DNA of 64,000 nt from the NCBI RefSeq assembly GCF_010993745.1, contig NZ_WOTN01000003.1, forward strand, positions 1,736,001 through 1,800,000. Reading direction: 5' to 3'. Each line of letters opens with the position of its first letter. Position 1 is the stretch's first letter. The notes beneath the pieces are model-generated. The model saw nothing but the letters and a program-made list of their open reading frames with translations. It was not told where the DNA came from and made no database searches. Below, one piece after another: positions 43,942 to 63,368 of this stretch. Origin of the DNA: Fodinicola acaciae (lineage in GTDB: Bacteria; Actinomycetota; Actinomycetes; Mycobacteriales; HKI-0501). The position numbers were made by a program, and so were the translations under genes.

Positions 43942-43946
43942 CCGCG

Positions 43947-44384: not shown

Positions 44385-45039
44385 GGTCACGGCTCCGCAG
44401 CGTCTGGCCAACCAATTTGCGAACAATGATCGCGAGATCGTCGGCCGGCTGCTCGGCATCCAGGATGTGGTAGGTGTCGCTGGTCCCCCACGGCTGGTCC
44501 AGGAACGCCTGGCGTACTCGTCGCATCCGCTCGGTGTCCTGCTCCTCCCAGCGCGGCAGCTCACCTCTGGCCAGGATCCGTTGGCGTGCGGTCGAAACGT
44601 CGACGTCGAAGCACATCGTCAGGTCAGCCGGTGGAAAATACCTGTTCAGCTCGGCCAGCCAGGCGGCGTCGTCGAGTCCTCTGGCGATGGCCCAGGTCCA
44701 CGACGTGTGGACGTAGCGGTCCATCAGCACGATCTCGCCGGCGGCCAGCCGTGGCAGCACCTCGGTCCTGGTCTGCCGATAGCGGTCGGCGGCACTGAAA
44801 AGCGCCAGCTCCGCGACCATATCGTGGCGCTGCTCCGGCGACATCGAACCGTCCATATAGGACCGGATGACCGGATCCTGCCGCCGGTACCACTCGGTGT
44901 TCGGCCGCAGGACGGTGACTTTTTCGCTGACGGCAAGCCATTCCGCCGCCAACCGCACCTGTGTGCTTTTGCCGGATCCGTCGATGCCACAGAAGGCGAT
45001 CAGCACACCTGGATGAGGCATCGGCTCGCGCATCCCCAT
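44374..45039 (-). CDS. Thymidylate-kinase-like protein 2
   Basis: The 221-residue P-loop kinase has Walker A GIDGSGKSTQ and the substrate block VLMDRYVHTSWTWAIARGL, nearly the same as in protein 1 (41199), so the two are paralogues of one subfamily rather than two copies of housekeeping Tmk. The N-terminus MGMREPMPHPG precedes the P-loop. ATG 45039 has GGAAGG 8 bases upstream. It lies 18 bases after the second MurA-like gene, giving the gene order MurA-like then kinase, as in the other pair. Confidence 0.82.
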   Translation of the reverse strand: MGMREPMPHPGVLIAFCGIDGSGKSTQVRLAAEWLAVSEKVTVLRPNTEWYRRQDPVIRSYMDGSMSPEQRHDMVAELALFSAADRYRQTRTEVLPRLAAGEIVLMDRYVHTSWTWAIARGLDDAAWLAELNRYFPPADLTMCFDVDVSTARQRILARGELPRWEEQDTERMRRVRQAFLDQPWGTSDTYHILDAEQPADDLAIIVRKLVGQTLRSRDHGR

Positions 45040-45057
45040 TTTCCCGTCCTTCCTGGA

Positions 45058-47351: not shown

Positions 47352-47377
47352 GCTGTTTTCCTCTTCCGCGGAGACAT

Positions 47378-48625
47378 CTATCGAGCCGGCACCAGGACGA
47401 GACATGCGTTGTGGCCACCGAAGCCGAAAGAATTGGACAGCGCCGGAGCCGGACCGACCAGCCGCGCCTCACCGGCCACCACGTCGATCGGCTCTTCGAT
47501 GCCAGGAGCGGAAAAGTTGGCGACCGGTGGCACGACGCCACGGCTCGCGGACAACAACGCGACCAGCGCCTCGTACGCACCGGCTCCACCCATCATGTGG
47601 CCGACGACCGACTTCGGCGCGGTCACCGGCGGCCCGGCCGAGCCGAAGACGCGTAGCAGTGCCGCGCTTTCGGCGCGGTCGTTGAGAACCGTACTCGTGC
47701 CGTGCGCGTTGACATGACCGACTCCGGCCGGCGTGAGGCCGGCGTCGGCGATCGCGGTCGTCATGCATCGCGCCGCGACCACACCTTCGGCCGCCGGCGC
47801 GACGATGTGGAAAGCGTCGCAGTTGCTCGCATATCCAGCGATCTCGCCATAGATACGCGCGCCGCGCCGCTGCGCCAGATCCCAGTCTTCCAGCACCAGG
47901 AAGGTGGCGCCTTCAGCCATCACGAAACCGTCGCGGTCAGCGTCGAACGGTCGCGAGGCAGCGGCTGGGTCGTCGACACGCGAGGAAAGCGCCCGAAGCC
48001 GGCCAAAAGACGCCATGATGCCGACGGTCACCGGAGTGTCCACGCCGCCCGCGATGGCACAGTCCAGCTCGCCATGCCGGATTTTCTGCGCGGCTGCGCC
48101 AATCGCGTCCGTGCCACTGGCGCAGGCCGTCACGTGTGTCGTGCATGGGCCGCGAAAGCCGAGCTGCAGCGCGATCCGCGCGGCCGGTGAGTTGGGCATG
48201 ATCCGTGCCACGGTGAAAGCCGGGTAGTCGCCAGGACTCGCGCCGTACGAGAGAACCGCCTCCTCGGTGGAAGAAATGCCTCCCATCGCGCTGCCGACGC
48301 TGACGCCGGCGCGGTCCGGATCGACCTCGGTGAGACCGGCATCGACGTACGCGTCTCGCGCCGCCGCGACGGCGAGCTGTGTCGCGCGATCGGTTTTCCG
48401 TTGCTCTCTCGGCGGAAAGTAGTCGTCCATCGCCGGTGGCGGGGGCACCGTACAGGCGAAGGTCACCGGCAGTTCCGCAGCCGCCAACTCCGGCACCGGC
48501 GCGGCCAGCGACTCACCTTTGAGCATTGCGGCGAAAACCGACTCCACGTCCGCGCCGGCAGGTGCGCGTACGCCGGCGCCGGTCACCGCGACCCGGCGCC
48601 GGTCCGGCCGGCCGGTGGCCGTCAT
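47378..48625 (-). CDS. Beta-ketoacyl-ACP synthase (KAS II / FabF-like)
   Basis: The 415-residue thiolase-fold enzyme has the full triad: Cys in TACASGTDAIG, His in NAHGTST and His in GHMMGGAGA, with the KAS II Lys in PKSVVGH. It condenses malonyl-ACP with an acyl primer. Its ATG overlaps the ACP stop by 4 bases, so it pairs with that carrier. It lacks a chain-length-factor partner, so it behaves as a stand-alone elongating enzyme rather than a type II PKS pair. Confidence 0.93.
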   Translation of the reverse strand: MTATGRPDRRRVAVTGAGVRAPAGADVESVFAAMLKGESLAAPVPELAAAELPVTFACTVPPPPAMDDYFPPREQRKTDRATQLAVAAARDAYVDAGLTEVDPDRAGVSVGSAMGGISSTEEAVLSYGASPGDYPAFTVARIMPNSPAARIALQLGFRGPCTTHVTACASGTDAIGAAAQKIRHGELDCAIAGGVDTPVTVGIMASFGRLRALSSRVDDPAAASRPFDADRDGFVMAEGATFLVLEDWDLAQRRGARIYGEIAGYASNCDAFHIVAPAAEGVVAARCMTTAIADAGLTPAGVGHVNAHGTSTVLNDRAESAALLRVFGSAGPPVTAPKSVVGHMMGGAGAYEALVALLSASRGVVPPVANFSAPGIEEPIDVVAGEARLVGPAPALSNSFGFGGHNACLVLVPAR

Positions 48626-48882
48626 GCCGCCGGTCCGGCGACCAGCAGCCGCTCGGCGAGCAGGTCGACGGCGTGGCCGACAGTCTCCGCCTTGATCAGG
48701 TCGCCGACACCGATCCGGACGTTCACCGCCTTCTCCACGCGTGCGCCGATTTCCAGCAGTTCCAGGCTGTCCACGCCATAGTCGGTGTCCAGCGCGGTCC
48801 GCTCGGTGATCTCGTCGAGCTCGACGCCAACCACCTCGGCGACCTTCGTCCGTACGATCGAGGAAAGTTCTTCGCGGGTCAT
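48622..48882 (-). CDS. Acyl carrier protein
   Basis: The 86-residue protein has the ACP core with GVDSLELLEI; Ser39 takes the phosphopantetheine arm. No phosphopantetheinyl transferase is in the window, so it must be charged by an enzyme encoded elsewhere. It overlaps the acyl-CoA dehydrogenase stop and the KAS start, 4 bases each. Confidence 0.93.
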   Translation of the reverse strand: MTREELSSIVRTKVAEVVGVELDEITERTALDTDYGVDSLELLEIGARVEKAVNVRIGVGDLIKAETVGHAVDLLAERLLVAGPAA

Positions 48883-50123
48883 CCGTTTTTCCTTTCGAAC
48901 TTGCCCAAAGCCGGTGCGCTTTCGTCCAGGTCGAGGCCGGCCGGCAGGTCGAGCGCGGTGCGGCCGAGAAACTGCCGGACGGCCGGCCTGGTCGGCGGAT
49001 GGAAGCGGATCGCCTGGCTGTCGCGCCACAACCGCTCCAGTCCGGTCGCACGTGCGTACGCGGCACCGCCGCAGGCCTCCATCAGCCGCTCCACGGCGGC
49101 CGGAATCGCTTCGACGCCACGCTGTTTCACCGCCAGCGCCGCCGGCAGCAACTCCACCGGATCGGCGCCCGTATCCATCCGAGCAGCGAGTCCGCCGCAA
49201 GCCGATTCGATCGCCAGCAGATCCGCGGTCGCGTCACCGACGACCGCCTGATAGCTCGGAAGTTCGGCGCGGCTGGCGTCCAGATGACGGATCCGCATGC
49301 GATCGAGCAGCCGCCGCGCGTCACGCAGCGCCGCCTCGGCGAGTCCAATGTAGACGGCCGTGCTGGTGAGGCTGAACCACACGACGCCGGCCGCCACCAC
49401 GTCGTCCAACTCGGTTTCCACTGGCGCGCGATAGAAAACCAGGTCGTCCGGGACGAAGCAGTCCTCGATCAGGATGGTGTTGGAGGCCGAGCCGCGCATG
49501 CCGAGCGTGTCCCAGGTTTCGCGTACGGTCAGGCCAGGTGCGTGCGTCGGCAGCATCGCCACCAGCAACTCGTCCGGACCGTCCAGGCTCGGTTCGCTCT
49601 GCATCTGCAGGCAGATCAGGTCGGCATCGGCGGCCAGCGAACACGGCGCCTTGGTGCCGCTCACCCGCCAACCCTTGCCGTCGCGGCGAGCGCGCAACGT
49701 GGACCGGACGACCGATCCTCCCAGCTGCGGTTCGGCGAAAGCCGAGGCGAGCAGGCGGTTCTGCGTCGCGATGGCCTCCATCAGCAGCCATGCCGTGTCG
49801 GCGCGCCGGCGCCAGTGCTCGACCATCAGGCCGACCGAAAACAGGTGCATGTTGACCGCGATCGCCAGACCTGGGTCGACCATCCCCAGTTTTCGTTGTG
49901 CCGCACAGCATTTCAGGAGCCCAGCGCCACCACCGGAAAACTCCTTCGGCACGGCCAGACCCGGCCAGCCGGCCGACTTGAGGGCGGCGATGCCGGCGGT
50001 GGACGGACGACCGTCGCGATCCGCGGCCGCCGCGGCCGCCGCGATCGTCGTCAGCAACTCGGCCGGTATGTCGGCTGTCACGTCCGGCCACAGAATGTCG
50101 GCCGCTGCGAAGAAATCGTCCAT
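48879..50123 (-). CDS. Acyl-CoA dehydrogenase-like flavoprotein
   Basis: The 414-residue protein has the acyl-CoA dehydrogenase fold: LASAFAEPQLGG (FAD/substrate motif), LGMRGSASNTILIEDCFVP and the C-terminal EACGGAAYARATGLERLWRD block. Where MCAD-type enzymes carry the catalytic-base YEGT, this one has FHPPTRPAV, so the base must lie elsewhere or the reaction differs. It probably desaturates an ACP- or CoA-bound acyl chain. ATG 50123 overlaps the aminotransferase stop. Confidence 0.87.
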   Translation of the reverse strand: MDDFFAAADILWPDVTADIPAELLTTIAAAAAAADRDGRPSTAGIAALKSAGWPGLAVPKEFSGGGAGLLKCCAAQRKLGMVDPGLAIAVNMHLFSVGLMVEHWRRRADTAWLLMEAIATQNRLLASAFAEPQLGGSVVRSTLRARRDGKGWRVSGTKAPCSLAADADLICLQMQSEPSLDGPDELLVAMLPTHAPGLTVRETWDTLGMRGSASNTILIEDCFVPDDLVFYRAPVETELDDVVAAGVVWFSLTSTAVYIGLAEAALRDARRLLDRMRIRHLDASRAELPSYQAVVGDATADLLAIESACGGLAARMDTGADPVELLPAALAVKQRGVEAIPAAVERLMEACGGAAYARATGLERLWRDSQAIRFHPPTRPAVRQFLGRTALDLPAGLDLDESAPALGKFERKNG

Positions 50124-51358
50124 CACGAAGCCAATCCGGAGACGGTCGCGCTCGCTCGTGCGATCGCGTTTTCCAACAGCTCCAGCGCTTCGGCCACCTC
50201 CGCGGTGGATGCCACGATCGGTGGCAGCAACCGGATCGTGGCCGGCCGGCTCAGGCACGGCGAGACGATCAGGCCGAGTTGCGCGACCTCGACCAGCACC
50301 TCGCCGGCGAGCGCCGCGGACGCGAGGTCGACACCCCACAGCAGGCCACGGCCGCGTACGCCGGCGATCGCGTCAGGATGCTTTGCCCGTACGGCTGCGA
50401 GTCCGTCACGCATTTCCACCTCGATACGCGCACCGTCCACCGCATGCGCCTCGATGAGGTCCAATACGACCGGCACGACCGCACACCCCAGTGGATTGCC
50501 ACCGAAAGTGGCGGTGTGCAGGAACGGATCACGCGCCAGCGGACGGAAAAGTCGCTCGCTCATCACCGCGGCGGACATCGGCAGAACCGCTCCGCCGAGC
50601 GGCTTTCCGACCAGGAGCGCGTCCACGTCCAGGCCGACGGCCAGCGCCGGCGACCGAGGACCACAACGGCGCAGGCCGGCCTGGATCTCGTCGGCTATCA
50701 CCATGGTGCCAGCACTCCGAGCCGCGTCGCACCAACTCGCCAACACCGCCGGATCGAGCGGCACGACACCGTTCTCTCCTTGCACAGGCTCGAAAACCAG
50801 TGCCGCGGCGGGTCCGTCCGCGAGTGCCTTCGCGACCGCGTCAGGATCGTCGGCCGGCACATGTAAGACCTCGGACAGCGCGTTTTCCAGGCCTCGCCGG
50901 AAATGTTCGTGGTGCGTGAGCGCGAGAGCGCCGAGTGACTTTCCGTGATAGCCACCTTCGACCGCGACCACCCTGGTGTGTCCGGTCGCCAGTCGGGCGA
51001 GTTTCACCGCCACCTCGACAGCGTCCGCACCATTCAGTCCAAAGTGGACGCGCGGCAACCGGCCATCGAAATACTCCACGATCGCCGCCGCTGCCGCCGC
51101 CGTCATCGGATTCACCAGCGTACGCGTGGAAACCGGCATCGCTGCGAGCTGCCGCGTCACCGCAGCGAGCACTTCCGGATGCCGATGCCCCAACAGCGGC
51201 ACCGCGTACGAGCCGAAGTCCAGCAGTCGCCGGCCGTCCGACAACTCCACACGACAGCCGCTTGCCGACTTCTCCACCGCACCACCACCGGCGAGTTTTC
51301 CCGCCAGCGCGAGTGGCGGCGACAGATGAGCGCGCACCTGACGCAACGCGTCCGTCAT
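50123..51358 (-). CDS. Class III aminotransferase
   Basis: The 411-residue PLP enzyme of the ornithine/acetylornithine aminotransferase group has VIADEIQAG and the PLP-lysine motif LLVGKPLGG. Such enzymes aminate aldehydes or ketones, often omega-terminal. Beside a thioester-reductase-like SDR this suggests formation of an amine on an acyl chain (inference). ATG 51358 overlaps the upstream stop by 4 bases. Confidence 0.92.
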   Translation of the reverse strand: MTDALRQVRAHLSPPLALAGKLAGGGAVEKSASGCRVELSDGRRLLDFGSYAVPLLGHRHPEVLAAVTRQLAAMPVSTRTLVNPMTAAAAAAIVEYFDGRLPRVHFGLNGADAVEVAVKLARLATGHTRVVAVEGGYHGKSLGALALTHHEHFRRGLENALSEVLHVPADDPDAVAKALADGPAAALVFEPVQGENGVVPLDPAVLASWCDAARSAGTMVIADEIQAGLRRCGPRSPALAVGLDVDALLVGKPLGGAVLPMSAAVMSERLFRPLARDPFLHTATFGGNPLGCAVVPVVLDLIEAHAVDGARIEVEMRDGLAAVRAKHPDAIAGVRGRGLLWGVDLASAALAGEVLVEVAQLGLIVSPCLSRPATIRLLPPIVASTAEVAEALELLENAIARASATVSGLAS

Positions 51359-52356
51359 CGGACACCTGCCAGCACGCTTCCGGGCTGCGGCAGCATCCGG
51401 CCCTCGCCGTTCATCCACATCCGCCGGCCGGTGCCACTGACAACGCAGGTGCCGCCGGGAATGTCGTGCTGGATGTGCTGCGACGCGACCAGCAACACCG
51501 GCCAACTCGCGGTGTCGACACCGGCCAGCCGCAGTTCGCGTTGCCACTCCTGCCAGTCCAGCGGCGCCACACCGGACTCGGCCGCGGTCAACCGCAGGTT
51601 TGCGCGCTCGGCGGCGGTTTTCTCACCGGTCGCCGCGGCGAGCCGGCGTCGTACGATCGCCGCCGCCTCTCCGGCATTCAGCGTGTACGTCTCGGTGACC
51701 GGCTCCGACACCTCCACCGGCACCGCGTTTTCCACGCCGTCAGCCAGAATGTCCGGCCACTGCTGGTAAATCCTGGTGAGCCGCGGCGGATCGAAGGCGA
51801 TCCCCAGCTCGCGTACGATGTCGATCGGCTCGTCCGGACAGTGCACCAGCACCATCAGCCGGTTCGGCGCGCCGAGCACCGTACGCAGGTGCCAGTCCTC
51901 GCGAGCGGCCGGAAATGCCGATCCCTTCAGGGTTGCCAGCCGCGAGCTGGCCGGAATCGGCCCGGCCGTACGGTCGGCGAGCACCAGCGTGAGCGAATCC
52001 CTGCGCTGGTGGAGCAGGTCGGACAGCGCGAGCCGGTCGAGGGTGGCGATGTTCCACTGATAGCGCCACAGTTCGCGGGTCATCGGCCGTTGGTAGCGAA
52101 ACCGCATCGCCTGCACCGGCACGAGCCCGTGACCGGCCAGGAAACGCACGCATTCGGCCAGCCGGCCAGCCAGCAGCCCGTCCGGTTTGACGGTGAGCAC
52201 CGCGAGCCGCTGGAAATACCAGGCGGCGTCCGGACCGAGCAGCTGCCGCGCGGTCCGCCAGCTCTCCCGAAAAGCGCTGTCGTGGGTGAAAATCCGGAAC
52301 TTCTCCGGCTGCGTGGTCAGCGTCCGCCAGGTCTGCTGGTCGGCGAGCTGCGACAT
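51355..52356 (-). CDS. NDP-kinase-like protein 2
   Basis: The 333-residue protein is the second member of the divergent NDP-kinase set: LTVKPDGLLAGRL (residue 55), LKGSAFP (near 143, missing the Pro of GPT) and VLVHCPDEPIDIVRELG with His172 at the catalytic position. It has a ~50-residue N-terminal and a ~140-residue C-terminal extension. ATG 52356 begins 7 bases after the aldolase stop; GTG 52371, overlapping that stop, is possible. Function is unknown. Confidence 0.75.
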   Translation of the reverse strand: MSQLADQQTWRTLTTQPEKFRIFTHDSAFRESWRTARQLLGPDAAWYFQRLAVLTVKPDGLLAGRLAECVRFLAGHGLVPVQAMRFRYQRPMTRELWRYQWNIATLDRLALSDLLHQRRDSLTLVLADRTAGPIPASSRLATLKGSAFPAAREDWHLRTVLGAPNRLMVLVHCPDEPIDIVRELGIAFDPPRLTRIYQQWPDILADGVENAVPVEVSEPVTETYTLNAGEAAAIVRRRLAAATGEKTAAERANLRLTAAESGVAPLDWQEWQRELRLAGVDTASWPVLLVASQHIQHDIPGGTCVVSGTGRRMWMNGEGRMLPQPGSVLAGVR

Positions 52357-52363
52357 GTCCTCG

Positions 52364-53416
52364 TCAAGCACGTACGTGTCCCGGCCAGGTCGCCGCCAGC
52401 AGGCCACGGCCAGCGGACCCCAGCTGCCGGCACGCGGCGGCCACTCGGTTGGCCATCGACTTTTCCGCCGGGCGCAGGAAAGCACGCGGGTCGTAATGCT
52501 TCTTCGACCCCATTTCACCGTCGACACGCAACACTTTGTCATAATTGCTCAGCACGTGATGCGCGACCGCGCGGCTGAACGCGTACATCGTGTCGGTGTC
52601 GATGTTCATCTTCACGACGCCGTACGAGACGGCCTCCTCGATCGCGGTCGGATCCGATCCCGACCCGCCGTGGAAGACCAGGTCGAACGGCGACTCGATG
52701 CCGGTCCGCTCGGCGATGTGGCGCTGGATGACCTCCAGCACTTTCGGTTGTAGGCTGACGTTTCCCGGGCGGTAGACACCGTGTACGTTGCCGAAGGAGG
52801 CGGCCAGCAGATAGCGACCGCGCTCACCCATGCCGAGCACGTCGACGACCCGGTCAGCGTCCTCCGGAGTGGACAGCTGCTTTTCCTCCGTTATCCCGGA
52901 AAGCCCGGCGTTCTCCTCGCCGACGACACCGATCTCCACCTCCAGGATCGCGTCGACCTCGGCGGCGAGCGCCAGCAACCGCGCCGAGATCGCCAGGTTC
53001 TCCTCCAGCGGCAGGGCGGAGCCGTCCCACATGTGCGATTGGAAGAGCGGACCGCCGGCGGCCGCGTGCCGCTGGCGTGACTCGGCGAGCAGCGGCAGCA
53101 GGAATCCCTCGTATTTCTCCTTGGGACAGTGATCGGTGTGCAACGCCACGGTGACCGGATAGTTTCTGGCCACCGACCGGGCGCATTCGGCGAAGGTCAC
53201 CGCGCCGCCGACGGCGTCGCGTATCGAGTCGCCGGACCAGAACTCGCCGGAGCCGACGGTGATCTGGATGATTCCGTCGCTGCCGGCCTCGGCGAAACCG
53301 CGCAACGCGGCGTTGAGTGTCTCCGACGACGTGACGTTGATCGCCGGGTAGGCGTAGCCGCCGCTCTTGGCCCGGTCGAGCATTTCGCGATAGGTCTCAG
53401 GATCTGCAACAGGCAT
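52364..53416 (-). CDS. fba: Class II fructose-bisphosphate aldolase
   Basis: The 350-residue protein matches actinobacterial class II FBA along its length: PAINVTSSETLNAALRGF, the zinc ligands in LHTDHCPKEK, LFQSHMWDGS, GNVHGVY and the FHGGSGS phosphate loop. It joins DHAP and glyceraldehyde-3-phosphate reversibly. A glycolytic-type aldolase inside a cluster may be a pathway duplicate that joins DHAP to another aldehyde (inference); a second fba elsewhere would support that. ATG 53416 has GGAG 6 bases upstream. Confidence 0.93.
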   Translation of the reverse strand: MPVADPETYREMLDRAKSGGYAYPAINVTSSETLNAALRGFAEAGSDGIIQITVGSGEFWSGDSIRDAVGGAVTFAECARSVARNYPVTVALHTDHCPKEKYEGFLLPLLAESRQRHAAAGGPLFQSHMWDGSALPLEENLAISARLLALAAEVDAILEVEIGVVGEENAGLSGITEEKQLSTPEDADRVVDVLGMGERGRYLLAASFGNVHGVYRPGNVSLQPKVLEVIQRHIAERTGIESPFDLVFHGGSGSDPTAIEEAVSYGVVKMNIDTDTMYAFSRAVAHHVLSNYDKVLRVDGEMGSKKHYDPRAFLRPAEKSMANRVAAACRQLGSAGRGLLAATWPGHVRA

Positions 53417-53445
53417 AGCTGTCTCCGGTGGTGGTGCGGTCTTCT

Positions 53446-53988
53446 CTATGAATGCGAGGCGCCGTCCTGGGCCGGCTCCGCCGGCAGCCAGGTGCCTGGC
53501 AGGGCCAGCGGCAGATGTGCGCCGCGGTTGACCGGCAGCAGTTCGCGTGCCAATCGCAGGGCCGGAAACAGCCCCTCCGGCCTGCGTACCGAGCCCGGTT
53601 TCTGGTCGAACCCCAGGCTCGTTTCAAGTTCCCTGACGTGGTCGAAAATCCGGTCGGCCGCGATCCGCGCGGACGCGATGTCCTCGGCCGCGGCGAGATC
53701 GCTGGCCAGCCGCAACGCGGTTTCGGTCTCCGACTCGCTGAGTCCTGCGAACGGATCGGCCAGCGGATCCGGTTTGTCCGGCGGAAAACCGCCGGCCAGC
53801 AACGACCGGATGCCGGCGGTGTGCAGGACGATCGTACGACCGGCATACTTCGCCACCGCCAGTTGGCCGGCGTCCAGCGCACCGGTGAGGTCCTCGACAC
53901 TCGCCTGGACCTCCAACAACACCTCGTAAATGCCGAAACAGTGGAACGCGGCCCACCTGCGCGGCTCGGTCACCGTACGGATGTTCAC
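53446..53988 (-). CDS. Conserved-looking protein, unknown
   Basis: This 180-residue protein starts with GTG overlapping the nucleotidyltransferase stop (GTGA) and has GAGGAGG upstream. It is mostly helical, with WAAFHCFGIYEVLLEVQASV near the N-terminus, no membrane segment, no signal and no motif I recognise. The tight coupling to the nucleotidyltransferase suggests that the two work together. Confidence 0.65.
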   Translation of the reverse strand: MNIRTVTEPRRWAAFHCFGIYEVLLEVQASVEDLTGALDAGQLAVAKYAGRTIVLHTAGIRSLLAGGFPPDKPDPLADPFAGLSESETETALRLASDLAAAEDIASARIAADRIFDHVRELETSLGFDQKPGSVRRPEGLFPALRLARELLPVNRGAHLPLALPGTWLPAEPAQDGASHS

Positions 53989-54983
53989 GCCGCCTCCTCG
54001 ATCGCCAGCCACACCAGGCCGTCGGCCACCAGCCGCTCCGCCAACGGCGGCAGCTCGGACACCGGGCCGCGCCAGTTGAGCTGCTCGGATATCCACATCG
54101 CCGGCTCGGCCGTGCTCACCTCGATGCCGCGCAGTCCCCACCGGTGCACCAAATGCCGGTCGCGCACCTTCCACGTCTGCACACCGGCCGCCGGTGAGAG
54201 CACCACGACCGGATCGACCGGCAGTGACCAGCCGGCGCTGAGATCGTCGACAATGGCACGAGTTCTCTTGAGATAGTCCGAAACCTGACCCGGCTCGTAC
54301 GGAACGGCCAGCAGGTCGGAGAAAACCTCGACGAGGTCCGGCCGGCCGATCCGCGCCAGCTTCGGTCCGGTCCACTTCTGGCCGACGTACGGCTCACCGC
54401 CGGCGGCGGCAATTCCGTTCAGGCAGGCGATTCCGGCCTCACAGAAGCGCTGCGCGGCCAGCGGCGGGTTGGTCGCCTGGAGCAGCTGCGCGGCGGTGCG
54501 ATAGCGGATCGTCTCGGCGCGCCACCAGTCCAGTGCCGCCCGCGGATAACCGTCGGCCAGCGAAGCACACCAGTCGCGCCAGGCCGGCTCACCGGTCAGC
54601 ACCTGTCCGAGCGCGAACCGGCCGACCTGGTTGAGCCGCCGATATCGCGCCTTCCACTCGGCGCGGTCGCACGGTGGCTGGAAAACCCCGGCCAGTGAGA
54701 CGGCCGCCTCGGTTATCCAGCTCTGGCCAACATAGTTGACGTCGACCGCTATCCCGAGGTCGTACGACCCGACCGGAAAGTCGGTCACCCGGCCGTCGTC
54801 CACCACGACGTGCAGGTCCAGATCGCTGGAACTGTTGCCGAATCCCTGCAGGACCGAGCCGGCCGCCACGATCGCCTTCGGTGCGCCGAAGCTGTCGTCG
54901 ACCTGCCTGACGAGATCGTCGGCGGTGCAGTCGTGCGGACGCAGGAACGCGTCCAGATATTCCTGTCTCTCCGACGAGAGCAT
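53985..54983 (-). CDS. Nucleotidyltransferase-domain protein (pol-beta superfamily)
   Basis: The 332-residue protein has the pol-beta-type signature GSVLQGFGNSSSDLDLHVVVD (GS followed by D-x-D; third Asp probably in VDVNYV), as in antibiotic nucleotidyltransferases and other NTases. The remainder is helical. It could nucleotidylate a pathway intermediate or the product, or give self-resistance (inference). ATG 54983 has AGGAG upstream. Confidence 0.75.
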   Translation of the reverse strand: MLSSERQEYLDAFLRPHDCTADDLVRQVDDSFGAPKAIVAAGSVLQGFGNSSSDLDLHVVVDDGRVTDFPVGSYDLGIAVDVNYVGQSWITEAAVSLAGVFQPPCDRAEWKARYRRLNQVGRFALGQVLTGEPAWRDWCASLADGYPRAALDWWRAETIRYRTAAQLLQATNPPLAAQRFCEAGIACLNGIAAAGGEPYVGQKWTGPKLARIGRPDLVEVFSDLLAVPYEPGQVSDYLKRTRAIVDDLSAGWSLPVDPVVVLSPAAGVQTWKVRDRHLVHRWGLRGIEVSTAEPAMWISEQLNWRGPVSELPPLAERLVADGLVWLAIEEAA

Positions 54984-55007
54984 GTGAAACTCCTGACTAA
55001 TGACAAA

Positions 55008-55799
55008 CTAGGACTGCGCGGACTTGGCGTTGCGATAGTCCAGGGCGCGCCACGCCAGCACACCGCAGACCAGGGTCATCGCGGCGATGATCGCCACGGC
55101 TTGCAAAGTCGGACCCCACGAGCCGCCGCCGGAGGTGCTCTCGTCCAACGCGCGCAGAGCCCAGTGCTGCGGCGTGGCCAGGCCGAGGAAACGCGAGAAC
55201 GGCGGCAGCTGGCTGTCCGGCACGACACTGCCGCCGACACAGCCGGTGGTGATCAGCACGATGTACGCGAGGCTTTGGAAAGTCGAGGTCGTACGCGTCA
55301 CGATGTAGAGCAGTGCACCGATCGCGCAGCCGACCGCGACCAGCGCGACGGCCACCACCAGCAGCTGCAGGACCGAGCCGTGCAGCGGCGTGCCGTACGC
55401 GATGAACGCGATGGCCCCGAAAACCGTCAACTGAATCATCCCGGCACCGGCCACCGGCAGGACTTTTCCCACCAGGAAGGCGAGTTTGGCCGGCTGGCTG
55501 ACCGCCTGCCGGATCCAGGTGTTGTTGGTGAACTCACGAAACAATGCCAGGCCGACGTAGTTGACCGTCATCAGGCTGAAGAGCACCGCGATGCCGATCA
55601 TCGACCGGCCTCCGGCGGCCGCACCGCCGCCACCGGACACGGCCGGTCCGAGGCTCAGCGAGAGCACCGCCGGCACCGCGAACATGAATGCGAGCGGCGT
55701 TCGCATCCGCCACAGGATGCGGCTGTCGCTGACCGCGAACGCGCTGACCACCGACCAGAATCGCGGCTCAGCCGGCCGGATGCCCGGACTGGTCGTCAT
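55008..55799 (-). CDS. ABC-2 type transporter permease of the cluster
   Basis: The 263-residue protein has six membrane helices in the ABC-2 pattern. Its start overlaps the ATPase gene end by 32 bases, so the two form one exporter. Within the operon it is the likely product exporter. It ends 24 bases before the nucleotidyltransferase start. Confidence 0.85.
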   Translation of the reverse strand: MTTSPGIRPAEPRFWSVVSAFAVSDSRILWRMRTPLAFMFAVPAVLSLSLGPAVSGGGGAAAGGRSMIGIAVLFSLMTVNYVGLALFREFTNNTWIRQAVSQPAKLAFLVGKVLPVAGAGMIQLTVFGAIAFIAYGTPLHGSVLQLLVVAVALVAVGCAIGALLYIVTRTTSTFQSLAYIVLITTGCVGGSVVPDSQLPPFSRFLGLATPQHWALRALDESTSGGGSWGPTLQAVAIIAAMTLVCGVLAWRALDYRNAKSAQS

Positions 55800-56724
55800 C
55801 GAGCAACCCCCTCAGCTCCGGATCGGACACCATCAGCTGCCGCAACGTCTTCCTGGTCAACCGCGCCGCCGTCAGCCGCGCCGCGGAGATCTCCTTGTCG
55901 CGTACCAAAGACGCCACCACCGTCGAAAGGTCGGCGGCGGTGACCGGCGCCGGAGCGCGTACGGTCGCCGGTACGCCTGCGACGTCGACCTCCAGGACGA
56001 GCTCCGCGTCGAGTCCACCGAGCAGCGCGGCCAGCGTCCCCCGCCGGACGATCGTGCCGCCGCGTAGGACCACGGCGTGCGTGCAGGTTTCCTCGATGTC
56101 CTCCGGATAGTGCGAGGTGACGATCATCGCCATCCGCTGCCGGCGCCACTGCCCGATCAGCTCCACCAGGCGGCCACGCGCCTCGAAGTCCAGTGCCGCG
56201 GTCGGCTCGTCCAGCAGCCGGATCGGCGGCGAGTGAACGAAACTCGCGGCGATGTGCGCGAGCCGCTGCCAGCCGCCGGACAGCTTCTCCACCGGCACGC
56301 GGATCACCTGCTCCAGGCCGAACTCCGCGATGGTCCGGTCGACCGCGTCGCCGACCTGTCGCCATGGCACCGAAACCCGCGCCGAATGGCGCAGGTTTTC
56401 CCATACGGTCAGCTGCTGGTAGAGCGCGATGTGCTGGCTGGCGAAGCCGACGACTCGCGGCAGCTCAACGGCGTCACCGTGGACCGACGTGGTGACGCGA
56501 CCGGTCCGTACGCCGCTTTGCGCGTCGAGCAAAGCCTTGAGCAACGTGCTTTTCCCGGAGCCGTTCGGACCGAGAATTCCCAGCACCTCGCCGGCGGTCA
56601 GATCGAACCCGACGCCGGTCAGCACGTCGTCGGCGGCACCGCGATAACAAAAGCCGAGATCGTTGACGCACAACGAAACCGCGGCCGGCACTGTCGCGGT
56701 GTCGAGCCGTTCGATGATGGTCAT
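55768..56724 (-). CDS. ABC transporter ATPase of the cluster
   Basis: The 318-residue ATPase has Walker A GPNGSGKST, signature LSGGWQRLA (Trp in place of the usual Gln) and Walker B RLLDEPTAALD. A ~90-residue C-terminal extension follows, as in drug/lantibiotic exporter ATPases. ATG 56724 lies 5 bases after the SRPBCC stop. The frame is open upstream but there is no other start signal. Confidence 0.9.
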   Translation of the reverse strand: MTIIERLDTATVPAAVSLCVNDLGFCYRGAADDVLTGVGFDLTAGEVLGILGPNGSGKSTLLKALLDAQSGVRTGRVTTSVHGDAVELPRVVGFASQHIALYQQLTVWENLRHSARVSVPWRQVGDAVDRTIAEFGLEQVIRVPVEKLSGGWQRLAHIAASFVHSPPIRLLDEPTAALDFEARGRLVELIGQWRRQRMAMIVTSHYPEDIEETCTHAVVLRGGTIVRRGTLAALLGGLDAELVLEVDVAGVPATVRAPAPVTAADLSTVVASLVRDKEISAARLTAARLTRKTLRQLMVSDPELRGLLDDDQSGHPAG

Positions 56725-56729
56725 CGCCG

Positions 56730-57176
56730 CTAGACCGCGCTCGCTCGCTGCTCGAGCCCCCGCAACATCTTGGTGGAGTTGTCTTCCAACGCGGTCTTGG
56801 CCACCGGGTTGAGCATGTCGGCAAGCAGCGGAATGCCGATCTCGAAGTCCACGTACAGCACGACCTCGCAGCTGTCCGGGCCGTCCGCCTCGATGACCTG
56901 CCAATAGCCGGCGAAATGTTCCAGGTCGCCGTCGACCTGCTGGAAATCGATTCGCCGCCGCTCGTCGTCGATCTGGTCGGACTCGGTCCATTCCAGGATC
57001 GAGCCTTTCAGGAAAACCGACCAGGCGCTGATCCGGTTGGACCGCTTGGTGTCATCGGTGATCTTCACCGACCGTACGTTTTCCATGTACGCCGGATAAC
57101 TTTCCACATCACAGACGGCGTCCCACGCGGCCGCGGGGCTGACCTCCAGCCGCAGGCGCACTTCTACAACAGGCAC
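56730..57176 (-). CDS. SRPBCC / polyketide-cyclase-like protein
   Basis: The 148-residue protein has the START/SRPBCC pattern of actinobacterial cyclase-type proteins (WDAVCDVESYPAYMENVRSVKI; FAGYWQVIE; VDFEIGIPLL). These bind hydrophobic ligands; some aid cyclisation of polyketides, others handle lipids. It is the first gene of the long minus-strand operon. GTG 57176 has AGGGGA upstream. Confidence 0.8.
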   Translation of the reverse strand: MPVVEVRLRLEVSPAAAWDAVCDVESYPAYMENVRSVKITDDTKRSNRISAWSVFLKGSILEWTESDQIDDERRRIDFQQVDGDLEHFAGYWQVIEADGPDSCEVVLYVDFEIGIPLLADMLNPVAKTALEDNSTKMLRGLEQRASAV

Positions 57177-57519
57177 TATTTCCCCTATTCACAGCGAACG
57201 AGAATGCGGGTGTGGCGATGTCATGAATATGTGTGGCCGCGCGCAGCGCCGCCACAAGCAACGCGACCGACCATAGCGGGCTGTGTCAAGGCTTCACGAG
57301 AATTTCATCTTGACCGGTCCTCTCGGTCCTCTTCTGGCCGTCTGAGCCGGATAATCGCGGTTGTCCGTTGATCGGTGACGGCGACTGTGGTTAGGTGCGA
57401 CGGCTCGCACTTGCCAGGACGCCGCGGCGATCGTTGTCATCGAGAGCAAATCTCGTGACAACGGTCATGCCGGATCGCTGACGAACTCAATCTCATCGCG
57501 AAGAAATCATGGAGGAACC
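57177..57519. other. Divergent control region of the biosynthetic operon
   Basis: 343 gene-free bases between the start of the 19-gene minus operon and the plus-strand cupin gene. It is less GC-rich than the genes. It contains the dyad at 57432-57463. No promoter can be assigned with confidence on either strand. Confidence 0.6.
57432..57463. promoter_or_regulatory. Strong dyad, possible operator or leader hairpin
   Basis: CGTTGTCA-t-CGAGA, a 5-base centre, then TCTCG-TGACAACG: 13-base arms matching except for a one-base bulge. It lies 57 bases before the cupin start and is the only strong dyad in the divergent region. Confidence 0.6.
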
Positions 57520-58167
57520 GTGCTCTCCGAGCTTGCGGGTTACACGGTCGACTGGAGCGACCTGAACAAAGCGCACCTGCGCAATTCCGAGTTTCTCAAC
57601 GCGCTGGCCGCCGACAAGGAAGCCCTGGCGACGCTTGTCAACCGCGTACGCGCGCAACGCGACCTGTGGGACATGAGCGAACATCACCGTCTGTTCGACA
57701 AACTGGTGCTGCACGACGCACCGGACCGCAACTTCCGCATCCGGCTGCACGTCTGGTCCCAGATCGAGGTGGCGACACCGCACGACCACCGATGGTCCTT
57801 CACCACTTCGTTGCTGCGCGGCGGATACGAGCACGTTCTCTATGACCTGGTGTCTCCGGACGGCGACCCTGGCCATCCGGCGGCGGCCTTCGCCGAGCGG
57901 TTCAGCTCCACGTTGCGCGCCGGCGACTCCTACACCATTCACCACACCGTCGTGCACGCGACGCTCACGCGCTCCGGCACGGTGTCGCTGATCGTACGCG
58001 GACCGGCGGAGAAAAGTCGTGCGCTGACAACGAATCCGGAGACCGGTGCGGTCCAGTTCGGACTCGGCCGCAAGGACCAGACCGTCGACGACGTGGCCAG
58101 GAGCCGGCTCACCATCGAGCGCTATGAGGAGATCCGTATGCAACTGCGCGAAAGTGGGGTCATCTGA
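57520..58167 (+). CDS. Cupin-like protein, unknown
   Basis: The 215-residue protein has a His-rich core: TPHDHRWSFTT, GGYEHVLYD, and GDSYTIHHTVVHATLT, spaced as in a cupin beta-barrel with a likely metal site (His in H-D-H, and His in IHHTVVH). Cupins of this size include dioxygenases, isomerases and sugar epimerases. The GTG start at 57520 follows GGAGG by 4 bases. It is divergent from the operon and presumably belongs to it. Confidence 0.65.
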   Translation: MLSELAGYTVDWSDLNKAHLRNSEFLNALAADKEALATLVNRVRAQRDLWDMSEHHRLFDKLVLHDAPDRNFRIRLHVWSQIEVATPHDHRWSFTTSLLRGGYEHVLYDLVSPDGDPGHPAAAFAERFSSTLRAGDSYTIHHTVVHATLTRSGTVSLIVRGPAEKSRALTTNPETGAVQFGLGRKDQTVDDVARSRLTIERYEEIRMQLRESGVI

Positions 58168-58221
58168 TCCCTTGCTCTGCGGAGCGATGATGGTCGTACG
58201 CATCCGACCGAACGGAGACCC

Positions 58222-59094
58222 GTGACAACCGTCGTCGCAGAGCCGGACGTCCCCGGCTGGACAACAACCATGGAACGGAAAAGAGAGCTCTTCGACGACG
58301 ACACGTATTATCTCGAGTGCTGGGACGATTTCCGGGACGCGCTGGCGCCGGCTCGGTTGCGTGAATTCTGCGAGCACCACTCGTTTCTTCTGGTCAAACC
58401 GGAGGCCCTGCTCACCGGCCGGCTTCCGGCCATCCTGTCCTGGCTGCGCGCTCGCGGCTGGCTGGTGGCGGCCGTGCGGGACGTGCCGTACTGCCGGCAC
58501 GTTCTGCGCGGACTTTGGCGCTATCACTGGAATGCGGTCAGCCGCCAGCATCGCGAGGTGGTCGACCTGCTTTTCCGTGCCTGTCCCGCTCTTCTGCTAG
58601 TGGTCCGGCACGCGAAGGCCGGCGCGACCGCGGCGCTGGCCGCACAGAAAGGACCGTCGAAACCGGCCAGACGCAGGCCGGGAGAGCTGCGCGCCGAACT
58701 CGGTGCGTACAACGCTTACCTGAATTTCGTCCATTCACCTGACGAACCGGCCGACCTCGTCCGCGAGCTCGGCGTGTTGCTGCCGTCCGCCAGCCGCGCC
58801 GCACTGATCGATGAGGCGACGCGTGGCGCGTCGGTCGCGGTGCCATCGCCGGACGCGGCACTGGATTGGCACGCGCTGGATCGAAAAAACGCCGCCGACC
58901 GGCTGATGCGCCTCACCGCATCGACAGACGCGATCGCGAGCTGCGACGACTGGCTCGCTTTGCGCGCCACGCTGCCGGCGAACGTCACCGAGGATTTCGC
59001 CTTCGCCGTTTTCGCCAGCTATCTCACGACGGCCGAAGTCGACGGCCGGACCCGGCGCATTCCGACGATACGCGACGGCTCCGTCGAGACCTAG
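58222..59094 (+). CDS. NDP-kinase-like protein 3
   Basis: The 290-residue protein is the best-conserved of the three paralogues: LLVKPEALLTGRL (residues 56-68), QKGPSKP followed by PGELRAELG (near 142-161), and FVHSPDEPADLVRELG with His171 at the catalytic position. It is divergent from the main operon, downstream of the cupin gene by 54 bases. The GTG start has GGAG upstream. Its stop shares the palindrome CTAG (59091-59094) with the stop of the ALDH-like gene on the other strand. Confidence 0.78.
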   Translation: MTTVVAEPDVPGWTTTMERKRELFDDDTYYLECWDDFRDALAPARLREFCEHHSFLLVKPEALLTGRLPAILSWLRARGWLVAAVRDVPYCRHVLRGLWRYHWNAVSRQHREVVDLLFRACPALLLVVRHAKAGATAALAAQKGPSKPARRRPGELRAELGAYNAYLNFVHSPDEPADLVRELGVLLPSASRAALIDEATRGASVAVPSPDAALDWHALDRKNAADRLMRLTASTDAIASCDDWLALRATLPANVTEDFAFAVFASYLTTAEVDGRTRRIPTIRDGSVET

Positions 59095-60488
59095 AAGATG
59101 CCGACCGGGCGCGGATCGTAGCTGACCAGCAGGTCCTTGGATCGCTGGTATCGCTCCAAAACCTGCGCGCGCCCGTCGCCGCCGTAGGAGTGTCGGCCGC
59201 TCAGCGCGGCATGTGCCGGATAGCGGTGATAGCAGTTGGTCCAGACCCGCTCGGCGGCGATCCGCCGGCCGGTCCGGTAGGCACGGTCGACGTCGCGCGT
59301 CCACACCGCCGCACCGGAGCCGGAAAAACAGCTGTTGGCCAACCGTACGGCGTCGTCCGGCTGGTCGAAGGCGGCGACCGTGACGACCGGACCGACAGTG
59401 CCGGCCTTGAGATGGCGTACGTCCCGGCCGGCCGCGATGACCGTCGGCTGCAGGTAGAAACCGCCCGCCAGCGCGCCGTCCAGCTCGGCGCGCTCACCGC
59501 CGACCACGACTTTTCCTTCTATCGCCGCCAAAGCGCGGCTCACGTGGTCGGCACTCGGCAATGCGCCGATCATCGTCTCGGTGTCCAGCGGATCCCCCTG
59601 CTGGATCGCCTTGGTTCGGATGGTCGCCAGCTCCAGGAACTCGTCGTACGCTGACTTTTCCACCAGCGCCGCGGAAAGACCGGTTTCCTGGTTGAGCGCG
59701 AACATCGCGAAGCCTTCCAGCGTCTTGTCCTGGAAGTCGTCGTCGGAGCGCAGCACGTCGGAGAAGAAGATCGCCGGACATCGTCCGCTCGCCGTCGCGA
59801 ACGGCACTGTGTCCAGCGCGTCCGCCGCGACGCCGTTGAGCACGTTGAGGACGCCCGGCGGTAGCAAATCCCCTATCAGACCGAGCAAAACATGGATCGA
59901 CGCCGGAGTCCGCTCCGACGCGGCGAGTACGACGGTGTTGCCGGCGGCCAGCGCCGGCGCGAGCTGCCAACCGGCGGTGAGCAACGGAAACTCCGAGCCG
60001 GCTCGCAGGCCGACCACGCCGAGCGGCTCGCGGAAGTGGTACGCGACGGTGGCGCTGTCGATTTCCGAAATGCCGCCTTGCTGCGCGCGCAAAGCACCGG
60101 CACAGTAACGCCACTGGTCGATGGCGATCGGCAGGTCGGCGGCCAGCACCTCGCGGATCGGCCGGCCGGTCTCCCACGTCTCGGCGACCGCCAGCGCCTG
60201 CAGGTTCTGCTCGATCCGGTCGGCGACGCGGTGCAGCACGCCGGCCCGTTCCCCCGGCGCGATGCCGGCCCAGGCCGGCGCGGCGCTGGTCGCGGCCGCG
60301 ACGGCGAGCCGTACGTCGGCCTCCGTCGAGCGGCACAGCTCGGTGAACACCTGGCCGGTGACCGGACTGGTGTCGGCGAAGTAGGCGGCGCGTGTCGACC
60401 GTACGTATCCGCCATCGATCCAGTTGCCATAGCGCGACTCGTACGTCAGCGTGCTACCCGGCTGGCCGGGTGCGGCGAACAGGACCAT
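59091..60488 (-). CDS. Catalytically degenerate aldehyde-dehydrogenase-like protein
   Basis: The 465-residue protein follows actinobacterial AldA-type aldehyde dehydrogenases over its whole length, for instance TIRTKAIQQGDPLDTETMIG, VWTNCYHRYPAHAA and KDLLVSYDP. Yet it has lost the catalytic and NAD-binding signatures: PWNFP is AGSEFP, KPAE is AASE, the FTG...ELGGKSP stretch (about 30 residues) is deleted and ends in SGRCP, NQGEVC is NQETGL, and EEIFGP is KAGTVGP. No frameshift is seen, so selection seems to keep the fold. ATG 60488 has GAGGGGGG upstream. It is probably a pseudoenzyme. Confidence 0.85.
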   Translation of the reverse strand: MVLFAAPGQPGSTLTYESRYGNWIDGGYVRSTRAAYFADTSPVTGQVFTELCRSTEADVRLAVAAATSAAPAWAGIAPGERAGVLHRVADRIEQNLQALAVAETWETGRPIREVLAADLPIAIDQWRYCAGALRAQQGGISEIDSATVAYHFREPLGVVGLRAGSEFPLLTAGWQLAPALAAGNTVVLAASERTPASIHVLLGLIGDLLPPGVLNVLNGVAADALDTVPFATASGRCPAIFFSDVLRSDDDFQDKTLEGFAMFALNQETGLSAALVEKSAYDEFLELATIRTKAIQQGDPLDTETMIGALPSADHVSRALAAIEGKVVVGGERAELDGALAGGFYLQPTVIAAGRDVRHLKAGTVGPVVTVAAFDQPDDAVRLANSCFSGSGAAVWTRDVDRAYRTGRRIAAERVWTNCYHRYPAHAALSGRHSYGGDGRAQVLERYQRSKDLLVSYDPRPVGIF

Positions 60489-60569
60489 GGCGCACCCCCC
60501 TCGGAACGGCGACACGACACCTACCCGGAAGGCTAGGTGGCCGAGGGTTGCAACACCGTTGCGTGCGCG

Positions 60570-61913
60570 CTATCGGAGGGCGCTGTCGAGGTGGCGCAGG
60601 TGCGCCTGGACCTGCGTGCGGCGCGGCGAGCCGACCGGCAGCGCGGCCAGGCAGGCGCGCCAGATCTCCATGTCGGTGCGTCCGTCGGCCGACTCGGCAT
60701 AGCGCAGCAGCACCTCGCCGGTGGCGTGCCGCAACAGGGCCGTACGCAGGCGCTGGCGCAGCTCCTCGCGGATCGCCACCACGCCTGGCGCCTGCGACTG
60801 CGGCAGCACGGCGCCCTGGTAGACCTCCAGCGCCAGCCGGTGCGCGCCGCGGTCGAGCTGGCGGCGGACCTCGGCCACGTCGGTGTCGACCGGCACGGTG
60901 ATCCGGTAGGGCCGGGAGGTCAGGAAGTCGTCGCCGAGCAGCCGGCGCAGCCGGGACATCTCGGCCCGTACGGTCACCAGCGCGGACTCGCGTTCGTGCA
61001 GCTCAACGGCCAGTTGCTCGGCGGAGCGGCCGGCCGGGTGGGTGGCAAGGAGCAGCAGCAGCTCGCTGTGCCGGCCGGACAGCGACGTGACGCGGCCGCC
61101 GCGATGCAGCGTCGCGTGCGTGCGGCCCAGCACGTCCAGCCGCGCGATGGCGGCGTGCGGCAGCCGCGGCGGCCGGGTGCGCGGGGCCGGTGGCCGCGAG
61201 CGCCCCATCAGATGCCGCAGCCGCAGCTCCGCCTCGGCCGCCGCGGCGGTCGCTCGTACCAGCGTGAGCATGTGCGGCGCGGCCACCTGGTCGCCGCCGG
61301 TGATGTCGATGGCGCCGAGGATCGCGCCGGTCTGCGGGTCGTGCACCGGAGCGGCCGAGCAACTCCACGGATGCACCGGGCGGCTGAAGTGCTCGGAGGC
61401 GAAGATCTGCACGGAGTGGTCGACGGCGAGCGCGGTGCCCGGCGCGTTGGTGCCGGCGTCGGCCTCACCCCAGCTGGCGCCTTCGACGAACCGCATGCTC
61501 TCGGCGCGGATCCGCTGGCGGGTCGCGCCCTCGACCCAGAGCATCCGGCCGGACGCGTCGGTGACCGCGACCAGCAGGTCGCTGTCGGTCGCGTCGGTGA
61601 CCAGCAGGCGGCGTACGACCGGCATGATCGCGGCCAGCGGATGCGCCTCGCGATAGCCGTGCAGATCATCGTCGAGCAGGTCGACCGGTGGCTCGCTCAC
61701 GTCCGGGTTGACTCCCGAACGCATCGACCGGCGCCACGACTCGAGCACGATCGAACGGACCGGGATGACCGGTTTTCCGGTCTCCAGAAAGGATTCGTGC
61801 GCCGCATACAGACTGCGGGAAAGCTCGTCGGGGTCGGTGCCGGCCGGCCAGGCGAGCCACGGGCTGCCGCTGCTCATCCGCGCACCGCTCTGTGGCCGGA
61901 CGGCATCCGGCAT
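60570..61913 (-). CDS. GAF-domain transcriptional regulator
   Basis: The 447-residue protein has an N-terminal AcoR/GAF-like sensor part (SRSLYAAHESFLETG, then VVRRLLVTDATDSDLLVAVTD with FVEGASWGEADAGTNAPGT, residues about 30-230). A C-terminal winged-helix domain (about 280-350, with LTLRAEMSRLRRLLGD-type recognition) and a helical tail follow. Regulators of this type sit next to aldehyde dehydrogenase genes in Streptomyces and relatives. Here it precedes the degenerate ALDH. The start is uncertain: 61913 or 61877. Confidence 0.78.
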   Translation of the reverse strand: MPDAVRPQSGARMSSGSPWLAWPAGTDPDELSRSLYAAHESFLETGKPVIPVRSIVLESWRRSMRSGVNPDVSEPPVDLLDDDLHGYREAHPLAAIMPVVRRLLVTDATDSDLLVAVTDASGRMLWVEGATRQRIRAESMRFVEGASWGEADAGTNAPGTALAVDHSVQIFASEHFSRPVHPWSCSAAPVHDPQTGAILGAIDITGGDQVAAPHMLTLVRATAAAAEAELRLRHLMGRSRPPAPRTRPPRLPHAAIARLDVLGRTHATLHRGGRVTSLSGRHSELLLLLATHPAGRSAEQLAVELHERESALVTVRAEMSRLRRLLGDDFLTSRPYRITVPVDTDVAEVRRQLDRGAHRLALEVYQGAVLPQSQAPGVVAIREELRQRLRTALLRHATGEVLLRYAESADGRTDMEIWRACLAALPVGSPRRTQVQAHLRHLDSALR

Positions 61914-62041: not shown

Positions 62042-63235
62042 ATGACATATGACGTGGTGGCCGTACGCAAGCATTTTCCCGCGCTGGCCGAGGGTGCCGC
62101 GCATTTCGACGGTCCCGGCGGCTCGCAGGTGCCGGACGTCGTCGCCGAGGCGGTGGCCGGCACGTTGACCGCCGGCATCGCCAATCGTGGAACGGTGACC
62201 GCGGCCGAGCGACGCGCCACCGGGGTCGTGGAAGACGCTCGGCAGGCGGTCGCCGACCTGCTCGGCGGCGATCCGCGCGGTGTCGTGTTCGGCCGCAGCA
62301 TGACCCAGCTGACGTACGATTTTGCCCGTACTTTGGGGAAAAACTGGGGACCCGGTGACGAGATCGTGGTGAGCCGGCTGGACCACGACGCGAACGTCCG
62401 GCCCTGGGTCCAAGCCGCATCTGCGGCTGGTGCCACGCTCGTATGGGTCGCACCTGACCCGGAATCCACGGAACTTTCGGTGAAAACGCTGACGTCTTCG
62501 CTGACCTCGCGCACCCGGTTGGTCGCGGTGACCGGTGCGTCGAACCTGGTTGGTACGCGACCGGACCTGCCGGCGATCGCGGCCGCGGTGCACGACGCCG
62601 GCGCGCTGTTCTATGTGGACGGTGTGCACCTCACGCCGCACGCGCCGGTCGATGTCGCCGCGCTCGGCGCGGATTTCTACGTGTGTTCGCCGTACAAGTT
62701 TCTCGGTCCGCATCTCGGAGCGCTGATCGCGGCCCCGTCGTTGCTCGAGACGCTGCGTCCGGACAAGCTGCTGCCGTCGACGGACGAGGTGCCGGAACGC
62801 TTCGAGCTCGGCACGCTGCCGTACGAGCTGCTGGCCGGCACCACCGCGGCCGTCGACTTCCTGGCCGGCCTGGTCCCCGGCACCGGCGACCGGCGTTCCC
62901 GGCTGGTCACCAGCATGACGGCGTTGGAGGCGTACGAGGAGTCGCTGCGCGCGCGGCTGGAAGCGGGGTTGTCGGGTCTGGTGACCATGCACAGCCGAGC
63001 CGCACGCCGCACGCCGACGCTGCTCTTTTCCGTGCCCGGCGTGCCGGGACAGGTCGTCTACGCCGAGCTGGGCAAGCGCGGCGTGAACGCGCCGGCCGGC
63101 ACCTTCTACGCGATCGAGTGCTCGCGTGCGCTCGGCCTCGGCGACACCGGTGGCGTACGCGCCGGCCTCGCGCCGTACAACGACATCTCCGACGTCGACC
63201 GCCTGGTGGCCGCCGTCGCCGACATCGCCGGCTGA
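62042..63235 (+). CDS. Cysteine-desulfurase-like PLP enzyme (class V aminotransferase)
   Basis: The 397-residue protein belongs to the SufS/Csd-like class V group: FDGPGGSQVP at the N-terminus, VDGVHLTPHAPVD and the PLP-lysine in CSPYKFLGPHLG. It lacks a clear Cys in the mobile loop region of true desulfurases, so the substrate may differ. The ATG at 62042 follows a gap of 128 bases to the divergent regulator. No adjacent sulfur-transfer genes. Confidence 0.85.
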   Translation: MTYDVVAVRKHFPALAEGAAHFDGPGGSQVPDVVAEAVAGTLTAGIANRGTVTAAERRATGVVEDARQAVADLLGGDPRGVVFGRSMTQLTYDFARTLGKNWGPGDEIVVSRLDHDANVRPWVQAASAAGATLVWVAPDPESTELSVKTLTSSLTSRTRLVAVTGASNLVGTRPDLPAIAAAVHDAGALFYVDGVHLTPHAPVDVAALGADFYVCSPYKFLGPHLGALIAAPSLLETLRPDKLLPSTDEVPERFELGTLPYELLAGTTAAVDFLAGLVPGTGDRRSRLVTSMTALEAYEESLRARLEAGLSGLVTMHSRAARRTPTLLFSVPGVPGQVVYAELGKRGVNAPAGTFYAIECSRALGLGDTGGVRAGLAPYNDISDVDRLVAAVADIAG

Positions 63236-63275
63236 ACTACCCGCTACGGCGCGAAACTGTCGTACCCCCCTGCCA

Positions 63276-63305
63276 ATCTGGGCCCCCACCCAGATCGGGT
63301 GGGGG
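63276..63305. terminator. Hairpin with two competing pairings
   Basis: CCCCCACCC-agatc-GGGTGGGGG (63283-63305) is a perfect 9-base stem. The upstream ATCTGGG (63276-63282) can instead pair with CCCAGAT (63289-63295). The site is 40 bases after the desulfurase-like gene and probably terminates it. Confidence 0.6.
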
Positions 63306-63368
63306 GTGGGTTCGCGTGGCAACTTACATACATAGAAAGTTGATCTTGGCCGCGGCGGCCACGCCCCG

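Follow-up and report, generated by a model that had tools for sequence, protein, structure and literature searches.

The window analysed here, a stretch of 64,000 nucleotides from Fodinicola acaciae, carries a gene for an aldehyde dehydrogenase (ALDH) of ExaC descent, here called pseudo-ExaC, which we regard with a probability of about 0.7 as a true pseudoenzyme, regulated and selected, with an inferred non-catalytic binding or scaffold role. Comparison of the sequences established the losses, their common ancestry, the ongoing purifying selection, the drift of the active site, and the retention and uniqueness of a promoter box. In the course of events that we propose, the exaC operon of the Fodinicola ancestor (GAF regulator, ExaC, DUF779) would have lost DUF779, and the ancestral ExaC the NAD-binding loop and the residues for catalysis; selection would have retained the fold, the regulator and a regulator-type promoter. 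Pseudo-ExaC is apparently still expressed under ancestral control, by the GAF regulator at an 11-bp direct repeat. Instead of oxidising aldehydes it would work by binding, whether it forms an oligomeric scaffold, pairs with another protein or binds a ligand as an effector.

Lost catalytic and cofactor residues

The features of the gene are listed below, on the minus strand, with residues Asn169, Lys192, Glu268, Cys302 and Glu399 numbered as in ALDH2.

59091..60488, (-): pseudo-ExaC coding sequence, 465 aa, catalytically degenerate aldehyde dehydrogenase (profile matches, alignments, selection test, AlphaFold model)
59991..59993, (-): codon of residue 166, the Asn169 equivalent, Glu here and Asp in F. 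feengrottensis (alignments)
59922..59924, (-): codon of residue 189, the Lys192 equivalent, Ala here and Thr in F. feengrottensis (alignments)
59778..59834, (-): remnant of the NAD-binding loop and Glu268 motif (alignment; low model confidence at residues 227-235)
59670..59693, (-): former catalytic Cys302 loop, in which NQETGLSA replaces NQGEVCTCPSR (alignments)
59400..59402, (-): codon of residue 363, the Glu399 equivalent, Gly here and Asp in F. feengrottensis (alignments)

The reading frame, from the ATG at 60488 (or from a GTG at 60515, which would add 9 residues), was open throughout, and the absence of stops and frameshifts noted in an earlier, sequence-only reading of this DNA was confirmed. 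That reading had also described the protein as alignable end to end with AldA-type enzymes; the end-to-end alignment held, and the type was corrected by profile and closest chains to the ExaC-type acetaldehyde dehydrogenase. The Pfam Aldedh profile matched with an E value of 3e-74 and the NCBIfam ExaC profile (NF050026) with 528 bits, below its curated cutoff of 900; the nearest solved chains, 9fm9 and 9koi, are of ExaC type, and ExaC proteins aligned over the entire length with ~44-56% identity. Pseudo-ExaC thus belongs to the ExaC lineage by descent (ExaC best matches, adjoining regulator homologue, promoter box) and to the ALDH superfamily by fold (Pfam Aldedh, AlphaFold model against 9koi), and falls outside the ExaC equivalog by its bit score, by the absence of Cys302, Glu268 and Asn169, and by that of Lys192, the FTGST loop and Glu399. 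It is a pseudoenzyme in that the catalytic residues are gone and the gene was maintained by selection after their loss. The F. acaciae genome, 100% complete, amounts to 8,860,993 bases on 4 contigs, and the same contig number and a size of 8.86 Mbp are published for strain GKU 173 (PMC7232338).

We checked the losses by alignment with 106 full-length canonical ExaC proteins from the fetched loci. Asn169, Lys192, the FTG of the NAD loop, Glu268, Cys302 and Glu399 were kept in 106/106 of these, which excludes chance losses, and all were gone in pseudo-ExaC, so that every catalytic signature named as missing in the sequence-only reading was indeed found to be lost. Among the fetched full-length ExaC homologues, only the F. 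feengrottensis orthologue also lacked the catalytic set. About 30 residues of the NAD-binding loop (FTGST strand and helix) were deleted, with a deletion core common to F. acaciae and F. feengrottensis; ELGGKSP reads TA-SGRCP, by which Glu268 is gone, and the GEVC catalytic loop was deleted. As judged from these alignments, pseudo-ExaC is presumably devoid of catalytic activity.

The AlphaFold model, built with an alignment of 46 relatives, had a mean pLDDT of 80.5 and a pTM of 0.82, and its best solved structural match was P. aeruginosa ExaC 9koi with a TM of 0.85; the ALDH fold is kept in this predicted structure. Model confidence was poor at residues 139-150, 227-235 (the deletion site) and 421-450. 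Since part of the surface through which these enzymes usually oligomerise falls in the segments 139-150 and 421-450, oligomer retention in the model is uncertain.

Age of the losses and selection on the gene

F. feengrottensis HKI 0501 is the sole same-genus relative in the genome collection, and only two orthologues are known. The search for an orthologue with the same losses, suggested by the sequence-only reading, found one in this species at the same place, with the order class-V aminotransferase, divergent GAF regulator, then ALDH. The corresponding neighbours in the window are:

60570..61913, (-): intact GAF and winged-helix (Trans_reg_C-like) transcriptional regulator, homologue of the regulator beside canonical exaC (dN/dS 0.10)
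62042..63235, (+): class-V aminotransferase, cysteine desulfurase-like, divergent (synteny kept with F. feengrottensis)

The F. feengrottensis orthologue has Asn169 replaced by Asp, Lys192 by Thr, Glu268 by Gly, Cys302 by Gly and Glu399 by Asp, with the NAD loop deleted. At 200 near-invariant positions of canonical ExaC, the residue was lost at 77 in F. acaciae, at 65 in F. feengrottensis and at 54 in both, against ~25 expected under independence, and the common losses include 16 changes to an identical new residue and 7 positions in the joint NAD-loop deletion. Being common to both orthologues, the losses predate the species split. In a tree that comprised ExaC sequences alone, and so speaks for placements within ExaC, the Fodinicola pair was fully supported on a long stem of 0.71, with tips of 0.65 and 0.54, the pattern to be expected if a shift occurred and evolution then went on. 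No further pseudo-ExaC gene was detected in 395 genomes of the class by a search (E < 1e-92) limited to close copies with the NAD-loop deletion.

The F. feengrottensis pseudo-ExaC is read in several frames, and so are the adjoining genes for the regulator, the aminotransferase and the aminopeptidase. Short frames were also seen for several further ALDHs of this genome, and marker genes put the completeness of the HKI 0501 assembly at 74%. Given the neighbouring genes also hit and this completeness, we took the frameshifts as assembly error; as a sign of gene death they were discarded, the neighbours on the same contig being frameshifted too. The frames were joined for the alignment and the tree, and dN/dS was calculated on the in-frame stretches alone. 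At the loci on this contig (C79), most genes examined carried frameshifts, in keeping with the 74% completeness; an intact pseudo-ExaC in this species is therefore presumed, and claims of gene loss from this assembly need caution.

A codon model on 447 in-frame codon pairs of F. acaciae and F. feengrottensis gave a dN/dS of ~0.08 for pseudo-ExaC (bootstrap upper bound 0.11; 2dlnL ~260 against 1), a rough value owing to high synonymous divergence. The controls, three neighbouring genes on one contig, gave 0.10 for the regulator, 0.057 for the aminotransferase and 0.074 for the aminopeptidase. Change per codon position was 0.235, 0.174 and 0.450 at positions 1, 2 and 3, which indicates that the sense frame is the constrained frame. 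By these codon comparisons the gene is under strong purifying selection since the species split, like its neighbours. The dN/dS comparison proposed in the sequence-only reading therefore rejected neutrality (2dlnL ~260); unshared losses with neutral evolution, for which that reading had been ready to give up its pseudoenzyme, are contradicted by the losses in the orthologue and the purifying selection, so the pseudoenzyme part of the proposal is well supported.

The two orthologues were identical at 23/72 positions (32%) within the catalytic and cofactor motifs versus 268/386 (69%) elsewhere (Fisher P 3e-9), the reverse of canonical ExaC pairs of similar divergence, with an identity of 0.77 inside the motifs and 0.65 outside. 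On this measure, the old catalytic motifs drifted after the loss.

GAF regulator, promoter box and neighbourhood

In the window regulator a GAF domain was recognised, the match to the OmpR-type Trans_reg_C domain stayed below threshold, and a PDB sequence search with its C-terminal part returned only histone matches at chance level. It is 63% identical to the regulator of a canonical exaC operon in a relative (locus L039), where the order is regulator, ExaC, DUF779, and a homologue adjoins exaC in many actinobacterial relatives. DUF779 (PF05610), the usual ExaC partner, was absent from both Fodinicola genomes. No second ExaC was encoded in the F. acaciae genome, so that pseudo-ExaC is unlikely to assist an active ExaC as a subunit. 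From a reading of the ORFs, the closest paralogue of the regulator adjoins genes resembling an acetoin dehydrogenase complex.

A promoter element was located between the regulator and pseudo-ExaC:

60534..60562, (-): exaC-type promoter box GCAAC-N6-GCAAC-N11-TA, upstream of pseudo-ExaC, with the direct repeat at 60547-60562

Upstream of canonical exaC, the 11-bp repeat GCAAC-N6-GCAAC was present in 31/106 regions versus 0.1 expected, with 0-1 for other spacings, and in the listed exaC sites a TA usually lies 11 bases after the direct repeat. The loci with the repeat are from Actinobacteria (within L022-L078), many with the GAF regulator adjoining. The box is present in both Fodinicola species, in the best-conserved intergenic stretch, and the full pattern occurs a single time in the 8.86 Mb F. 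acaciae genome, upstream of pseudo-ExaC. Binding of a winged-helix protein to repeats 11 bp apart is plausible from OmpR/SARP-type regulators. The direct repeat looks like the putative operator of the GAF regulator family, and the GAF regulator would bind the promoter box. The tie of pseudo-ExaC to its GAF regulator, suggested in the sequence-only reading, is strengthened by this box, retained and unique in the genome. In the part of the literature searched, we found no description of an exaC promoter box and nothing that bore directly on GAF regulators of exaC.

On the other side of pseudo-ExaC, ~18 kb (window 41200-59090) was missing between conserved flanks in F. feengrottensis. Its genes include two EPSP-synthase-type transferases, a thymidylate-kinase-like and a nucleoside-diphosphate-kinase-like gene, an FBP aldolase, a class-III aminotransferase, a ketosynthase-like gene and an ABC transporter, and the stretch looks like an inserted biosynthetic cluster that ends at the pseudo-ExaC stop codon. 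Membership of pseudo-ExaC in this cluster was rejected, as F. feengrottensis has the regulator-pseudoenzyme pair without the 18-kb stretch. No microcompartment genes were seen beside pseudo-ExaC. A repeat of ~70 bp was noticed at window 63240-63314, with two more diverged copies on the F. feengrottensis contig C79 (near 35009 and 41070).

Alternative explanations, known systems and significance

The strong purifying selection could also be that of a neofunctionalised enzyme, in which the dehydrogenase chemistry is gone and another reaction evolved on new residues common to both orthologues. The 16 common replacements at near-invariant positions, several of them clustered in the former substrate/Asn169 region, speak for such a reaction, with Trp131, Cys134, Arg167, Gly169 and an acidic residue 171 (Parafrankia L050 numbering) as candidates. 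However, the NAD loop is gone, and the old active-site and cofactor loops change fastest and carry indels that differ between the species, so that no conserved new site is visible there, and we regard a new reaction as rather unlikely. The adjacent gene order kept in both species, the intact regulator and the sole recognisable promoter box of the genome between regulator and pseudoenzyme would also suit a sensory or feedback partner, a protein that binds the aldehyde or the GAF regulator and tunes the latter. Yet the adjacency was inherited from the canonical operon and so says nothing by itself about a new interaction, and unless the regulator had further targets that the promoter pattern misses, the pair would form a pure loop without output; this explanation appears unlikely to us.

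That function was lost systematically along with the DUF779 partner, and that the F. feengrottensis copy is read in several frames, might be expected of a pseudogene decaying slowly, with its stop or frameshift yet to come. We judge such decay to be very improbable, because the losses are common and hence old and yet dN/dS is ~0.08 since the split, third codon positions change about 2x as often as first and second ones, and the promoter is conserved; the F. feengrottensis frameshifts, which also affect the regulator, aminotransferase and aminopeptidase of a 74% complete assembly, point to an assembly error. A sequencing or assembly artefact in the window has a negligible chance, with indels in frame, an assembly of 4 contigs that is 100% complete, and the same losses in a second, separately sequenced species.

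The selected, presumably non-catalytic pseudoenzyme can be compared with known systems. With ExaC, an NAD-dependent acetaldehyde dehydrogenase, pseudo-ExaC shares the full-length sequence, the predicted fold, the order of GAF regulator and ALDH and the actinobacterial exaC promoter box, but it lacks the catalytic and cofactor residues and a DUF779 gene downstream. The ALDH-superfamily domain of PutA reportedly has a non-catalytic structural role; it resembles pseudo-ExaC as a bacterial ALDH fold in a non-catalytic role (inferred for pseudo-ExaC), and differs as part of a larger enzyme from a stand-alone gene with its own regulator. Human ALDH16A1 is an ALDH-fold pseudoenzyme without the whole catalytic set and has been proposed to be a binding protein (PMC10650815, PMC8160307). 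Pseudo-ExaC likewise keeps the ALDH fold and lacks the whole catalytic set; it is, however, single-domain and ExaC-derived, whereas ALDH16 is of another lineage and has a second, non-functional cofactor domain. The 465 residues of pseudo-ExaC, against ~750 in ALDH16 chains, contain no second ALDH-like C-terminal domain. In the second AldDH of GRM1 bacterial microcompartment loci the catalytic Cys is replaced by Ser or Pro (PMC4207490). Pseudo-ExaC is in the same way a bacterial homologue with the catalytic Cys gone, but the GRM1 protein stands beside an active AldDH in a microcompartment locus, and the Fodinicola genome has no second ExaC.

In the partial literature searched, no pseudo-ExaC was found that stands alone and has a conserved regulator to itself. 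Few stand-alone pseudo-ALDHs have evidence of selection, and the bacterial examples that we found either form a domain of an active enzyme or accompany one. A possible, still tentative, reading of the locus is that an induction circuit has been turned to a non-catalytic ligand- or partner-binding output, the regulator being probably aldehyde- or alcohol-responsive and the dead dehydrogenase its only recognisable genomic target. The ancestral regulator and promoter are preserved, which gives an outline of both signal and target and opens the role of the dead protein to direct tests. For exaC genes of Actinobacteria in general, the promoter box suggests a specific pairing of regulator and target, and in Fodinicola, a soil and root bacterium, a dead acetaldehyde-oxidising enzyme probably has a non-catalytic job.
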